Part shown: positions 21,554-26,916 of the stretch, piece after piece
Layout: each line of letters starts with the position of its first letter
How positions within the stretch are numbered: position 1 is the first letter of the stretch
From: Bacteroidota bacterium
Lineage (GTDB): Bacteria > Bacteroidota > Bacteroidia > Flavobacteriales_D > Crocinitomicaceae
DNA: 64,000 bases
Direction of reading: 5' to 3'
Assembly: GCA_006226425.1 (NCBI GenBank)
Contig: SBGX01000010.1
Span: 62,001 to 126,000 of the forward strand
Made by a program: the position numbers and the translations under genes
Notes under the pieces: model-generated
The model's input: the letters and a program-made list of their open reading frames with translations, nothing else
The model's database searches: none
What the model was told of the DNA's origin: nothing

Positions 21554-22345
21554 ATGCGAGTCATTACCAACAGACAATTCGGAAGCAGCCTGGAAGCCAT
21601 TCTTTATCCAGTCATGCTACTTGCCGTACTTTGGAGCATTTACCTTGTTGAATCCTTTCATGCCGAAGGCTTCGTCAGACTCGGAATTCTTCCCAAAACA
21701 GTAGAAGGAATCAAAGGTATTTTCTTTTCCCCCCTGATTCATGCTCCCCGGGATATCTCTCACATTCTAAACAACAGTTTACCCGCAGCAGTCCTCTTCG
21801 GAAGCCTCGTCTATTTTTACCGGCGCATTGCCTTCCAAATTTTTTTCCTATCCTGGATCATTTCCGGAATACTCGTCTGGATCTTTGCGCAGAATGATGG
21901 ACATTATCACATTGGCTTCAGTGGGGTCATTTATGCCCTGGCCGGATTCCTGTTTACCAGTGGCGGCATCCGAAAATACCGCCCTTTACAAGCTATTTCA
22001 CTTTTCGTCCTCTTTGTATACGGAAGCATGGTTTGGGGAATTTTCCCCATGAAAGAAGGTGTCTCCTGGGAAGGACATTTGACTGGATTGTGCACCGGGG
22101 TTGCCCTGGCCTATCTATATCGAAAAAAAGGACCGCAGGCTCCAAAGTATCAGTATGAAATAGAACGGGATTTAGGCATCGAACCACCCGATTTCGAGGG
22201 AATTTGGAAGGAACAGCTTCGAATTGCCAGGGAACGTGAGGAAGTCGAAAAACAAGAAAATTCACCTCATCGGATCATCTATCACTACCGCCCTGAGAAA
22301 CCAGTTGAAGCTACACCTCCGGGCGATAAGACCGACGAATCGTAG
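21554..22345 (+). CDS. Rhomboid family intramembrane serine protease
   Basis: A 263-residue protein with about six transmembrane helices. It carries the rhomboid catalytic serine in HIGFSGVIYA (GxSG, S123), the catalytic histidine in SWEGHLTGL (H175), and the upstream SHILNNSLP segment (H70, N73/N74) that forms the oxyanion site. Rhomboids cut other membrane proteins within or near a transmembrane helix. A hydrophilic tail of about 65 residues follows the last helix and contains many charged residues and IEPPDFEGIWK. The substrate is unknown. The 3' end overlaps the convergent sixA-like gene by 35 nt, the largest convergent overlap in the window. Confidence 0.9.
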   Translation: MRVITNRQFGSSLEAILYPVMLLAVLWSIYLVESFHAEGFVRLGILPKTVEGIKGIFFSPLIHAPRDISHILNNSLPAAVLFGSLVYFYRRIAFQIFFLSWIISGILVWIFAQNDGHYHIGFSGVIYALAGFLFTSGGIRKYRPLQAISLFVLFVYGSMVWGIFPMKEGVSWEGHLTGLCTGVALAYLYRKKGPQAPKYQYEIERDLGIEPPDFEGIWKEQLRIAREREEVEKQENSPHRIIYHYRPEKPVEATPPGDKTDES

Positions 22346-22778
22346 CCGTTCCGGAAGAAAGCATCTCCCAGGAATCCAATGGCACATCCAGACAAAGATA
22401 CGCACAGGTTTTCATGGCCTGATAACTTTCTGTGAGCATTTCCGCCAGGTCCGAAATTCCATTATTATGTCCGATGAGGAGGATGGGTTCTGATCCGCCC
22501 TGCTCATTCAGATAAGCCAGTAACTCCCGTCCGCTCGCCAGGTACAGTTCATCCTGAAAACAAACGGATTTAAACTTCCTGGAAGCCGCCAGTAACTCGA
22601 AACTTTGACGGGTTCTTTTGCTCGACGAACAATGCACATTTACCAGGTCCATGTCAGGTAAGTGCTTCTGTAAATCATCCAGTTGTCTGAGGCCTTTGGG
22701 AAGCAATTGACGGTCGAAATCGCGTTCCCCGAAAACAGCCTGTTTCGTCTTGGCATGTCTCAATAGATGTAGTTCCAT
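22311..22778 (-). CDS. SixA-like histidine phosphatase
   Basis: A 155-residue protein of the histidine phosphatase (phosphoglycerate mutase-like) superfamily. The catalytic RHAK motif (R7, H8) stands at the N-terminus, an RTRQSFELL helix follows, and the second histidine lies in LLIGHNNGISDLA. The short length and the RHAK start fit SixA, which dephosphorylates phosphohistidine in phosphorelay or phosphotransfer proteins. The true substrate here is unknown. Convergent overlap with the rhomboid gene is 35 nt. A TACATTTTTG sequence ends 4 nt before the ATG, a lengthened variant of the -7 box spacing seen at other genes of this window. Confidence 0.85.
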   Translation of the reverse strand: MELHLLRHAKTKQAVFGERDFDRQLLPKGLRQLDDLQKHLPDMDLVNVHCSSSKRTRQSFELLAASRKFKSVCFQDELYLASGRELLAYLNEQGGSEPILLIGHNNGISDLAEMLTESYQAMKTCAYLCLDVPLDSWEMLSSGTATIRRSYRPEV

Positions 22779-22928
22779 AACACAAAAATGTACATTTCAA
22801 GTGAAATCTTCCAACCCATTGCCCCGAAAAATCGTTATTGATTAAAAGGTAGCTCTTGAAGAGTAAACGGTTTGAAATCAACAAAATAATATTGTAACTT
22901 GCGCATACTGTCCCTACATAGAAGTGGA

Positions 22929-23504
22929 ATGAACGTTGACAGATCGGTATTGGAAGCGTGCCTAACGGATGACCGAAAAGCACACAAGGACCTGTATGCA
23001 TACTGCTATCAGGCTTTCATTCCCCTATGTTACAAGTACCACTCTCAGGACGAAGATGCCCGTTTCGCTTTCAATCATGCTTTTATGAAGATTTTAAGTG
23101 GTCTGAAAGACGTGAACCTGGACGACCTAAATTTTCATGCCTGGGCAAAGCGAATTACTCGTAACTCGCTCATTGACGATTATCGGAAGAACAAACTACA
23201 CCGAAGTCATTTTACCACACGTGAATCGGACTGGGAACTGGAAATTCACAGCCAGGGATCTCAAAATGAAGCCGAAAGTCAATTTGCTTATCAGAACATC
23301 CTTCAAATGATCGATGAAATACCTCAAAATCACGCATTGGTATTCAGATTATACGTGATTGAAGGGTACAGCCATAAAGAAATCGCTGAGCAACTTGATT
23401 TAACGGTAGGCACCTCCAAATGGCATCTATCCATTGCCCGAAAGTTACTACGAGAGAAAATAAATAAACTGAATGCTTTAACCGAAACAAGACTGGTCGT
23501 ATGA
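22929..23504 (+). CDS. ECF-type RNA polymerase sigma factor
   Basis: The ATG at 22929 gives 191 residues. Region 2 includes the conserved helix with FHAWAKRITRNSLIDDYRK (DNA melting and -10 recognition). Region 4 is a helix-turn-helix with YSHKEIAEQLDLTVGTSKWHLSIARK. The linker is short and there is no region 3, as in extracytoplasmic-function sigma factors. A longer start at 22899 lies inside the likely promoter (TAACTTGC near 22894), so 22929 is preferred. The stop overlaps the next gene by 4 nt (ATGA), which couples sigma-factor synthesis to its membrane partner. The expected role is to activate a small regulon when released by that partner; the signal is unknown. Confidence 0.9.
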   Translation: MNVDRSVLEACLTDDRKAHKDLYAYCYQAFIPLCYKYHSQDEDARFAFNHAFMKILSGLKDVNLDDLNFHAWAKRITRNSLIDDYRKNKLHRSHFTTRESDWELEIHSQGSQNEAESQFAYQNILQMIDEIPQNHALVFRLYVIEGYSHKEIAEQLDLTVGTSKWHLSIARKLLREKINKLNALTETRLVV

Positions 23505-24724
23505 GTTGGAGAGATGATGATATCGACGAATTGTTTCGTGAGGCTTCCAAAGAGGTCCAGATTCCGGCCTTTGAGGATCGTTTTTTCGAGGAATTCGAAC
23601 AAATGAAACACAAACAGGAAAGAGAGCGAAAATCTGCTTTTCCGTGGTTTGGTGGAACGGTTACCTTTTTGATCTTCTCACTGGGAGCCGTTTTCCTGTA
23701 TTGGATGAGTGACCGACAGGAAAGTTATCAGGATTTCTATGTGCCACTTGGAGGTACTCACTTTGATAAAGCCATTGAGACGCCTCTGCAGCAGCTAAGT
23801 ACTCCTCCGGCGAATAAATTGAATGCTTCCAAAACAAGAATCGGGAATCAAAATGAAAAAGTACAGGCTCCCCCACCCAACTCGACAAAGAACAGAGCAA
23901 GTAATCATTCTTTCACTGTGCGAAATAATGCCGAAAATGTCGGATCACCTCTTTCAGCTGACCTGGAAATTGGAAAGGACATATCAGGTCATTCGGAAAA
24001 TCCCAATCCAGAGGTCAAGCAGTCTTTCGAAAAAATGTTCCTTCCAAACAGAGCCTTTGATCGAAAACTTTTAGACATCCAACTCAGTGACAGACGAATT
24101 GGGAAACAAGTTATAATGAAATCCGGCAAGCAACTTAAAAATTACTTACTTGTTGCAATCGGAGCCGAAGAAGCCTTGCTAAAAGGGAATCAACAAACTC
24201 CAACTGCCGTCGGGCAATTTGAAATCGGACGAAAATTCGGAAAAGGAAAATGGCAAGCCGAAGTCGGACTCAGATGGCGAACGGCCTGGTACAAAGACCT
24301 CCGAATTAGCAAAGAATCTAATATTTACGGTTTAGGACTCAAACACTTCCAACAGGAAATCAACTATAGATCGTTGAATAGCATCGAACTACCTCTCCGT
24401 CTCAACCGAACACATCGTTCACATTCGATTGGTCTTGGAGTTGCACTGGGTTACAACCTCGGAAGTCGCATCGATCTCCAACAGTATGAGGATGGTCAAA
24501 AGCAACGAGATGACAGATATTATTTCAATGACCATGGGATCAAAAAGATCGTTGTTCGCCCTGAGGTATCCTACCGTGTTCAATTAGGTGGTGGTTATGA
24601 ACTAGGAGCTTCTCTTAGTGGAAACCTGTTCAACCCGATTGATCAGCAAATTTTCAATCAGCAAACAAAAAATCTTCCTTTACAAGGACAAATCCAACTC
24701 AAAAAATCATTCCGCTTTAAATGA
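23501..24724 (+). CDS. Membrane-anchored putative anti-sigma factor with C-terminal outer-membrane beta-barrel-like domain
   Basis: A 407-residue protein with unusual layout. Residues 1-48 are acidic and cytoplasmic (MSWRDDDIDELFREAS...), suited to binding the sigma factor encoded just upstream. One transmembrane helix lies at about 52-69 (VTFLIFSLGAVFLYW). Residues 70-210 are a proline/asparagine-rich linker. Residues about 215-407 alternate in beta-strands with aromatic ends and glycine turns (GQFEIGRKFGKGKWQAEVGLRWR, VSYRVQLGGGYELGASLSG) and end in SFRFK, like a small outer-membrane barrel. The 4-nt overlaps on both sides place it in one operon with the sigma factor and a lipoprotein. The anti-sigma role comes from context; I see no zinc-binding HxxxCxxC motif. 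Confidence 0.65.
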   Translation: MSWRDDDIDELFREASKEVQIPAFEDRFFEEFEQMKHKQERERKSAFPWFGGTVTFLIFSLGAVFLYWMSDRQESYQDFYVPLGGTHFDKAIETPLQQLSTPPANKLNASKTRIGNQNEKVQAPPPNSTKNRASNHSFTVRNNAENVGSPLSADLEIGKDISGHSENPNPEVKQSFEKMFLPNRAFDRKLLDIQLSDRRIGKQVIMKSGKQLKNYLLVAIGAEEALLKGNQQTPTAVGQFEIGRKFGKGKWQAEVGLRWRTAWYKDLRISKESNIYGLGLKHFQQEINYRSLNSIELPLRLNRTHRSHSIGLGVALGYNLGSRIDLQQYEDGQKQRDDRYYFNDHGIKKIVVRPEVSYRVQLGGGYELGASLSGNLFNPIDQQIFNQQTKNLPLQGQIQLKKSFRFK

Positions 24725-25785
24725 CCAAACTTCACCACTATATAAGTATTCTGATCCTTGGATTATCACTAATCGCCTGCAACAAGGAAATCCCCACACT
24801 TCCTTCTTCAAACAATTCTGTCTTCCAGGTCACTGGAATGATTGGCAGCGACTCTGTATCCTGGACAGCTGGAGTTGACGGAACGATGAAACCTGAGATT
24901 CGCCAGGTGAATGGAGTCCCTTATTATTCCGGAAAGTTAAAAATGGCTGGTCAGGAGTTTGAAATCGGATTTTTCTCAGGAAACCTGGATCGCAATATCC
25001 CTCTTTTGAACATGATCTCTGAACTTGATGAGCTCAAATATGTCAAAAAGAACCTGGAACCATTGCTTAAGGTCTCCAAAAATACCTTCGAAGGAATTGA
25101 AGACCTGGAACAAATTGACTGGTATATCAACGGTGAATTTTTTGCCAAAAACCTGCTTGAGATCTTTGAACCTGGAGTATACGATGTCTGTGGTGAATTT
25201 CTGTTCAAAGACGGGGAACTGCAGCGCGTTTGCAACCGCATGATCATCGGCTATAAGAAGGATAAAATATTCAATTTACAACGACTTATTATTCCTAACA
25301 CTGAATTATATCTTTGGGTAGACGGGATGACTGAAAGTATTGATTTTGTTAATTGGAAAAGAAATGGAGACTCCATTGGAACTGGGACTAACGTCAGCTT
25401 GACGCCGGCAAAAGGATTTAATGAAATTGAGGCCCGAATAAAGTACATTAACGGGACCGAAAGAACTCGAAAAATTGCCGTACACAACGAGTATCCTGGC
25501 AGATACATCCTGGATTTTGGAATTCTGGAAAACTACTCCCCTTACGCCCAGGACCACAAGGCAAGGGTTGTTTTTAAGAGTGGCAACAGCATTTATTCGA
25601 GTGAACTGGCAGACAATGAACAAAACCGGATTTACTTCGATGACATCAGCTACTATTCTCAGAACGTTTCCGGAGAAAATCTTTACAAGATCAAAGGACG
25701 TTTAAATGGCCAACTGAGATCTAAAACCAGCAATGAGACGCTCAAGGTTGATTTAGCGTTTGACTGGGCCTTCCCAATCCATTAA
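24721..25785 (+). CDS. Lipoprotein of the sigma-factor operon, unknown function
   Basis: A 354-residue protein with a lipoprotein signal: hydrophobic stretch ILILGLSLIAC with the lipobox cysteine at residue 20. The mature part is beta-rich, and around residues 180-260 it reads like a PKD/Ig-type segment (LWVDGMTESIDFVNWKRNGD, then GFNEIEARIKYINGTER). I recognise no catalytic motif. The start overlaps the stop of the barrel-like protein by 4 nt, so it is translated with the sigma factor and its partner. It probably acts at the periplasmic face of the outer membrane in the same signalling unit. The gene ends 30 nt before the next start, and two -7 boxes for the following gene begin inside or just after its end. 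Confidence 0.7.
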   Translation: MTKLHHYISILILGLSLIACNKEIPTLPSSNNSVFQVTGMIGSDSVSWTAGVDGTMKPEIRQVNGVPYYSGKLKMAGQEFEIGFFSGNLDRNIPLLNMISELDELKYVKKNLEPLLKVSKNTFEGIEDLEQIDWYINGEFFAKNLLEIFEPGVYDVCGEFLFKDGELQRVCNRMIIGYKKDKIFNLQRLIIPNTELYLWVDGMTESIDFVNWKRNGDSIGTGTNVSLTPAKGFNEIEARIKYINGTERTRKIAVHNEYPGRYILDFGILENYSPYAQDHKARVVFKSGNSIYSSELADNEQNRIYFDDISYYSQNVSGENLYKIKGRLNGQLRSKTSNETLKVDLAFDWAFPIH

Positions 25786-25815: not shown

Positions 25816-26916
25816 ATGAAAAAAGTATTACTTTCCCTGCTGTTGGCATCCCCGATGTTAAATGCGCAGATCACTATCAACTCTATTGATCTGGCAAATC
25901 TGGGGGATACCGTACGCCTGAGTATTGCTCCTGCCGATCAGCTTGATTTTCTGAGTACCGGGCCGGACATGAATTGGGACTTTAGCCAATTGGGACTAGA
26001 CTCTCAGGTAGTGAATGATTACCGTCCTGTCAGTGAGACCAATGCCTTCTTCATTCAGCCCTATTTCGGTGCTTCTGCCGATGAAGCACACCAGGCTAGT
26101 TATTATCGACGCATTGAAGGACTTGGTGGTCTTGACACCGGGACTGGAATCAGTATCGATCAATTGTCTATGTTTTCAAAACTGACCAATGATGCTCAAA
26201 CCACCGTTGGTTATTCGGCTTCATTTAGCGGGATTCCAGTAGCTATTCCTTCGGATTCAATCGAAACGGTGTATGACCTTCCATTGAGTTATGAAAAATC
26301 ATGGTCCGGAAAAGGTTTCAGTCAATTGGACCTTTCTGCCTTCAACTTTGCTTTCAAGCAATTCAGAACCAGAGAATCTGTTGTTGATGGTTGGGGAAAT
26401 ATCACCACCCCTTATGGATCATTTGAAGTCTTGCGTGTCAAGCACATCATTACTGAAATTGATTCTGTATTGGTTGAATTGGACAGTATAACAGGACCAC
26501 AATGGTATGGATTTGAGACTCCTCTTACGCGCGAGTATGAGTGGATTGCCAAAACAGAAAAAGAACCCATTCTGAAAATCATTACGTCAGAGTTCGTTAT
26601 GGGGGTGGAATCCGTAAGTGCCATTTCCTATCGCGACACAGCCAGAGAAACTCCACAAGTGGGGCTAAAAGAAAATGCAATTAGTGCTAACGCCCTCATC
26701 TACCCCAATCCGAATCAAGGTAAGTTGCATATCGAATCGCCAATCAACTTTAAACAGTTTGAAGTCTACTCCCTTCAAGGGAAAAAACTGATTTCGGGTT
26801 CATTGGATGGATCCTTTCAGGAGATCATCACAGAGAAACTTTCTGAAGGAAGTTATGTACTCAAATTGATCGACAGAAATACAGTATTTCAAAAAACATT
26901 TATCAAGAAGGACTGA
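25816..26916 (+). CDS. Secreted protein with T9SS C-terminal sorting domain
   Basis: A 366-residue protein with an N-terminal signal peptide (MKKVLLSLLLASPMLNAQ). The body (20-285) is beta-rich and of a kind seen in many Flavobacteriales secreted proteins, without recognisable catalytic residues. After residue 285 the type A sorting domain begins with IYPNPNQGKLHIE and continues with FEVYSLQGKKLISGSL and SEGSYVLKLIDRNTV. It should be exported by T9SS and displayed on or released from the surface. It has its own promoter (boxes at 25783-25798). There is no sign of operon linkage with the following fbp gene, 48 nt away, although no terminator is visible. Confidence 0.85.
   Translation: MKKVLLSLLLASPMLNAQITINSIDLANLGDTVRLSIAPADQLDFLSTGPDMNWDFSQLGLDSQVVNDYRPVSETNAFFIQPYFGASADEAHQASYYRRIEGLGGLDTGTGISIDQLSMFSKLTNDAQTTVGYSASFSGIPVAIPSDSIETVYDLPLSYEKSWSGKGFSQLDLSAFNFAFKQFRTRESVVDGWGNITTPYGSFEVLRVKHIITEIDSVLVELDSITGPQWYGFETPLTREYEWIAKTEKEPILKIITSEFVMGVESVSAISYRDTARETPQVGLKENAISANALIYPNPNQGKLHIESPINFKQFEVYSLQGKKLISGSLDGSFQEIITEKLSEGSYVLKLIDRNTVFQKTFIKKD

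Follow-up and report, generated by a model that had tools for sequence, protein, structure and literature searches.

Can a single polypeptide chain carry the state of the outer membrane to a sigma factor in the cytoplasm? The question is raised by a locus in a 64,000-nt stretch of DNA (hereafter the window) from a Bacteroidota bacterium of the Crocinitomicaceae (GCA_006226425.1, contig SBGX01000010.1, positions 62,001-126,000, forward strand). Here an ECF sigma factor, a middle protein with a possible outer-membrane domain and a lipoprotein are encoded in succession. The first-pass annotation had described the three genes as joined by 4-nt overlaps, and both overlaps are ATGA, with the open reading frames as annotated. 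The features of the locus are as follows.

22811-22836, + strand: ECF-type promoter CCAACC-N16-CGTT, likely autoregulatory (conserved motif and spacing)
22895-22902, + strand: TAACTTGC box, a possible but weak second promoter element (TAnnTTGC; enrichment)
22929-23504, + strand: ECF sigma factor, 191 aa (Pfam Sigma70_r2 and Sigma70_r4_2, TIGR02937)
23501-24724, + strand: middle (Dma-type) protein, 407 aa
23501-23635, + strand: putative sigma-binding cytoplasmic head, residues 1-45, two helices (AF2; binding inferred)
23639-23710, + strand: inner-membrane helix, residues 47-70 (AF2 helix, hydropathy)
23711-24124, + strand: disordered periplasmic tether, residues 71-208 (AF2, sequence)
24125-24721, + strand: predicted outer-membrane beta-barrel, residues 209-407 (AF2, fold comparison, homologs)
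24721-25785, + strand: partner lipoprotein, 354 aa, with an Ig/PKD-like domain at residues 181-258
25816-26916, + strand: type IX secretion system (T9SS) cargo protein, probable fourth operon gene (TIGR04183, 42.5 bits; PF18962)

The sigma gene starts at the ATG at 22929, and an alternative upstream TTG at 22899 is possible. The T9SS cargo gene begins 30 nt downstream of the lipoprotein gene, and 10 of 13 relatives have a homolog beside the operon, two of these matches being weak. A SixA-like phosphatase gene (22311-22778) also lies beside the operon and is kept there in most of the 13 relatives.

The middle protein begins with the acidic cytoplasmic head that had been read from its sequence: residues 1-38 include 12 acidic and 6 basic residues, and AlphaFold2 (AF2; 51 aligned sequences) places helices at residues 5-18 and 26-45. 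D9, F12, E31 and L36 are among its conserved positions. The single transmembrane (TM) helix of the annotation appears at residues 47-70 in the AF2 model, with the hydropathy peak at residue 49 and basic residues on the cytoplasmic side. It is followed by 138 residues (71-208) modeled without secondary structure at a pLDDT of about 50, in keeping with the proposed flexible linker of about 140 residues. The tether sequence is unconserved across homologs and rich in Ser, Asn, Pro and Lys. The strands of the C-terminal domain span residues 211-404, with block mean pLDDT values of 84-98. The annotation had proposed an 8-stranded outer-membrane-type barrel at residues 215-407; the barrel itself stands, and its start shifts slightly earlier, to about residues 209-211. 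When residues 209-404 were compared with solved 8-stranded barrels using VIA-align 2, the predicted fold matched NspA (Z 16.2, rmsd 3.0, 154 aligned), OprF (Z 16.1, rmsd 2.6, 131 aligned) and OmpA (Z 15.6, rmsd 3.4, 156 aligned). Foldseek concurs, aligning the same residues with 8-stranded outer-membrane barrels.

If the C-terminal domain were instead a soluble periplasmic beta-barrel or beta-sandwich, the protein would be an anti-sigma factor of the ordinary, single-membrane kind. Soluble barrels, PsbO among them, do match the domain, and no Pfam outer-membrane barrel model matched the window middle protein alone. However, the soluble barrels reach only Z 10-11, well below the Z 14-16 of the outer-membrane barrels NspA, OprF, OmpA and OmpW, and several homologs match the OMP_b-brl models PF13505 or PF13568, as does a protein of the dma2 gene order described below (PF13505). 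Since the outer-membrane barrel matches, Foldseek and the homologs agree, the soluble sandwich, set beforehand as the contrary outcome, is not what the comparison found, and we consider it very improbable. A solved-structure sequence search with the Dma profile gave no match; the barrel assignment of the window protein rests on the AF2 model together with the homologs, and its localization is predicted. Structure prediction, fold comparison and conservation all speak for the predicted anatomy of cytoplasmic head, TM helix, flexible tether and outer-membrane barrel. No FecR domain was found in the middle protein or its 13 homologs, and no TonB-dependent receptor gene among the open reading frames read beside the operon, so the protein lacks the marks of a FecR-type surface-signaling anti-sigma factor.

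Upstream of the operon lies a rhomboid protease gene (21554-22345), which is a neighbor in 6 of the 13 relatives, across several genera. Its product could be the protease that releases the sigma factor, which we note as a lead. The presence of this gene beside the operon in several genera, together with the length and disorder of the tether, would also suit an arrangement in which the tether is cut in normal growth, so that barrel and head act apart or the barrel serves only as an assembly reporter. On the other hand, the fused head-barrel architecture is kept in complete relatives, and we regard routine cutting of the tether as unlikely.

The whole layout recurs in homologs of the middle protein from 13 related genomes, at 15-23% identity to the window protein. 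In a linkage survey, genomes were searched with the sigma alignment alone, which returned 80 loci, 75 of them long enough to judge. The downstream partner stood directly behind the sigma gene in 75 of 75, and the head was detected in 74. The sigma orthologs are 40-59% identical, and the sigma relatives come from the Crocinitomicaceae and other Flavobacteriales (Fluviicola, Brumimicrobium, Lishizhenia, Crocinitomix). Since the layout is kept in the 13 relatives and the partner follows the sigma gene at every judgeable locus, the architecture is not a product of chance.

Dma proteins were reportedly first described in 2024, and their functions are said to be known in gut Bacteroides. In the published plan, a head, a TM helix, a disordered tether and a C-terminal barrel are encoded beside an ECF21 sigma factor (PMC13088901); the pairs Dma1/Das1 and Dma2/Das2 belong to Bacteroides thetaiotaomicron (PMC13088901 and its ref. 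16). The statement of the first-pass annotation that no characterized system is built this way is thus overturned by Dma1 and Dma2, as well as by a pair of Phocaeicola vulgatus, all of which share the plan. The window protein has in common with Dma1 and Dma2 the anti-sigma head, TM helix, disordered tether and C-terminal barrel, the neighboring ECF sigma factor, the multi-gene operon and a homologous head. The head homology was traced with DUF4943, a gene of the published dma2 operon, which was used to locate the dma2 gene order (sigma-X-DUF4943-DUF4858) in genomes. Locus L163 carries sigma, Dma, DUF4943 and DUF4858 in this order, and the head of its Dma protein, which was recognized by operon order and not by the Dma2 sequence itself, aligns with the window-family head over 52 columns (hhalign E 6.8e-7, Prob 91.9; BLASTP E 4e-5). 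The window sigma factor is 26% identical to the sigma factor at the das2 position. More widely, 121 of 392 sampled Bacteroidota genomes contain proteins that match the Dma profile, some of these matches being partial or compositional.

The genome of the window holds a second sigma/Dma-like pair (L153:4038-5664; G000:C13, same contig), in which a 383-aa protein repeats the order head, TM helix, linker and barrel; its barrel matches PF13505/PF13568 weakly. A candidate third paralog (G000:C31) was rejected, as a reading of its matches showed that it resembles an HU/SPOR-type protein. Given the head homology, the profile matches and the second pair in the genome, we assign the window operon, by sequence relationship, to a divergent Dma-type sigma/anti-sigma pair of the Crocinitomicaceae.

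One departure from the Dma2 operon is the third gene, which encodes the 354-aa Ig/PKD-like lipoprotein here and DUF4943 there. The lipobox Cys20 is invariant in 54 homologs of the lipoprotein. Its AF2 model is all-beta (pLDDT 92.6), and residues 181-258 give PKD/Ig structure matches with Z up to 9.0; a sequence search of solved structures returned weak, mixed matches only. In 51 of the 54, a Lys stands at position +3 relative to the lipobox Cys (residues 20-25, window 24778-24795), partly resembling the Bacteroidota surface-export signal, but the strict signal C-X-K-(D/E)2 fits only 7 of the 54, so the lipoprotein may face either side of the membrane. The gene is tightly linked to the pair, being present in 61 of about 75 loci, and its Ig/PKD-like domain may bind a ligand. 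Both points would agree with a division of roles in which the lipoprotein is the sensor and the barrel a passive outer-membrane anchor. Fluviicola-type loci nevertheless keep the sigma and Dma genes with a T9SS cargo gene in place of the lipoprotein gene. We consider a lipoprotein sensor possible, though on balance doubtful.

Another departure from Dma1 and Dma2 is that relatives of the window protein may carry tandem heads. About a third of the relatives (L043, L044, L049, L055, L057, L037, L100, L105, L109, L113 and the Crocinitomix group L089-L106) have two to five head-like segments ahead of the TM helix, the repeated unit being roughly 38 aa long. Clear cases have 2-4 copies, the L043 type having four heads, against a single copy in the window protein; copy numbers are uncertain for the Crocinitomix-type repeats, which are degenerate. 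This repetition suggests that a single chain is able to bind several sigma molecules. A narrow literature search found no description of tandem heads.

Which genes, then, would the sigma factor read? In 71 of 81 loci, the sequence ahead of the sigma gene holds CCAACC (or CCAACT) and, exactly 16 nt further on, a CGT box, which reads CGTT in most of the 71; a loose form of the motif occurs in 4 of 710 control windows. An AAC/CGT pair at this spacing is the usual form of an ECF promoter. The site at 22811-22836 is the sole CCAACC-N16-CGT match in the window, where 0.10 would be expected. Since the motif has the usual ECF form and spacing, the sigma operon is likely autoregulated from this site. 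A TAnnTTGC box is also found upstream of the sigma gene in 26 of 81 loci (2.1 in shuffles), and it resembles the SM5 promoter box TAnnTTGY of Flavobacterium psychrophilum (PMC9723704). A housekeeping TTG/TAnnTTTG promoter was considered as well and rejected (0 of 77 loci, 0.9 expected). CCAACC-N16-CGT was not seen upstream of the sigma gene in dma2-type operons or in the paralog pair of the window's genome (L153), and it is thus not universal to Dma systems.

We searched the exact motif CCAACC-N16-CGTY in the window's genome and 13 further carriers of the pair. Of 97 sites read in these 14 genomes, 51 are intergenic and stand directly before a correctly oriented open reading frame, whereas none of 30 sites read in eight same-family non-carriers stands before a gene (Fisher p 1.1e-8). 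The non-carriers lack both the Dma protein and the sigma factor (best 139 bits versus 311 or more in carriers). They still hold other ECF sigma factors and 50-150 T9SS tails each, so loss of the T9SS does not account for their missing promoter sites.

Sigma-factor genes make up 11 of the 51 targets; identified by reading, they comprise the own sigma gene, a second ECF sigma gene (four genomes) and one primary-type sigma gene. Among the 40 non-sigma targets, the T9SS type A tail TIGR04183 is found in 28 and TIGR04131 in 2, with possible overlap, and PF18962 matches 27. The background of T9SS tails is estimated at about 4% of genes, from 133 PF18962 matches in the window's 3.41-Mb genome and an assumed total of about 3,000 genes. 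These tail models were used in place of a crude signal-peptide scorer, which was dropped after scoring 49% of background open reading frames as positive. Sites are few, about 4 per genome, and some paralogous targets are non-independent (three lie on G009 contig 6). In the window's genome, the four sites before genes belong to the Dma operon, to the second ECF sigma gene and to the genes of a T9SS-tailed protein and a 528-aa lipoprotein. This lipoprotein belongs to no recognized family; two copies of 528-530 aa (L308:50-1633 and L314:6333-7922) are 40% identical, and the motif stands 11-14 nt before the start in two genera. In front of the second ECF sigma gene (roughly 199 aa), the motif lies 146-167 nt upstream in four genomes (G000:C36:23115-23140, L245, L247 and L262), which suggests a sigma cascade.

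The co-occurrence of motif and sigma factor is correlative, and another ECF sigma factor, for instance the 199-aa one, might read CCAACC-N16-CGTY, with the Dma operon merely one of its targets. The second sigma gene likewise bears the motif in its four genomes, and promoter sharing among ECF sigma factors is possible, as is stated for the SM6 motif of F. psychrophilum (PMC9723704). But genomes without the window-type sigma factor and Dma protein have other ECF sigma factors and many T9SS genes, and still show no site before a gene; in addition, the position of the motif is most constant at the Dma operon. We judge recognition by another sigma factor to be rather improbable. From the operon promoter, the contrast between carriers and non-carriers and the T9SS-tailed targets, the most likely role of the sigma/Dma pair is control of its own operon and of surface cargo.

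The gene order, conservation, predicted fold, promoter motif and motif-sigma co-occurrence computed here can be joined in one mechanism, for which we infer that the head binds the sigma factor, that the chain inserts in both membranes and that the sigma factor recognizes the promoters directly, along with the signal and the release step. We consider it probable that a Dma-type anti-sigma factor holds the ECF sigma factor, spans the envelope and frees the sigma factor for CCAACC-N16-CGTY promoters, including those of T9SS cargo genes. The two-helix head would retain the sigma factor at the inner membrane, in which the TM helix would anchor the chain. The 138-residue tether would cross the periplasm, with an estimated reach of at most about 45 nm at full extension (3.3 angstrom per residue), and the 8-stranded barrel would insert in the outer membrane, where it probably acts together with the operon lipoprotein. 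The sigma factor would be freed, perhaps through proteolysis, by some change at the cell surface or outer membrane, such as barrel assembly, binding of a ligand or of the lipoprotein, or secretion load. Once freed, it would read its own operon, which would be amplified, and in some genomes the second ECF sigma gene, its main targets being the T9SS cargo genes.

Own-operon control would be shared with Dma2, whose main targets include its own operon; the T9SS cargo targets predicted here differ from the effects of Dma1 and Dma2 on vesicles and polysaccharide loci. The P. vulgatus pair M0N98_03761/03760 likewise has an anti-sigma factor that, by prediction, reaches across the periplasm and ends in a C-terminal outer-membrane barrel. 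As described in the accessible part of that study, the pair is induced by the toxin BcpT, is likened to the B. fragilis EcfO pair and answers envelope damage; its active sigma factor goes with longer O-antigen and toxin protection, and no T9SS link was found in that part (PMC9308784). An ECF sigma factor has been tied to the T9SS before, in the PorXY-SigP system of Porphyromonas gingivalis, where SigP controls the T9SS and is influenced from the surface via PorA (PMC4800418, PMC7712824). That system differs in being a two-component system rather than a trans-envelope anti-sigma factor, and its described targets are T9SS component genes (PMC4800418, PMC7712824). A similar tie is suggested in F. 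psychrophilum, where, in the portion of the report available, SM6 promoters with an ECF-like CGT box are common to an ECF/anti-sigma pair and T9SS genes; the T9SS targets listed there are machinery genes, the responsible sigma factor is left unsettled, and no discussion of the anti-sigma architecture was found in that portion (PMC9723704).

While the plan was already known from Dma proteins, the regulon is apparently new, and the tie between a Dma-type anti-sigma factor and T9SS cargo looks new, as no earlier report of it was found in the literature searched. The Dma plan thus extends, as a conserved operon, to a distant flavobacterial family, for which a promoter and a regulon are now predicted. 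Should the cargo link prove true, it would provide a trans-envelope route that matches the production of T9SS proteins to the state of the cell surface. The compactness of the regulon makes the question of what a Dma barrel senses testable in cultured Brumimicrobium, Fluviicola, Lishizhenia and Crocinitomix.
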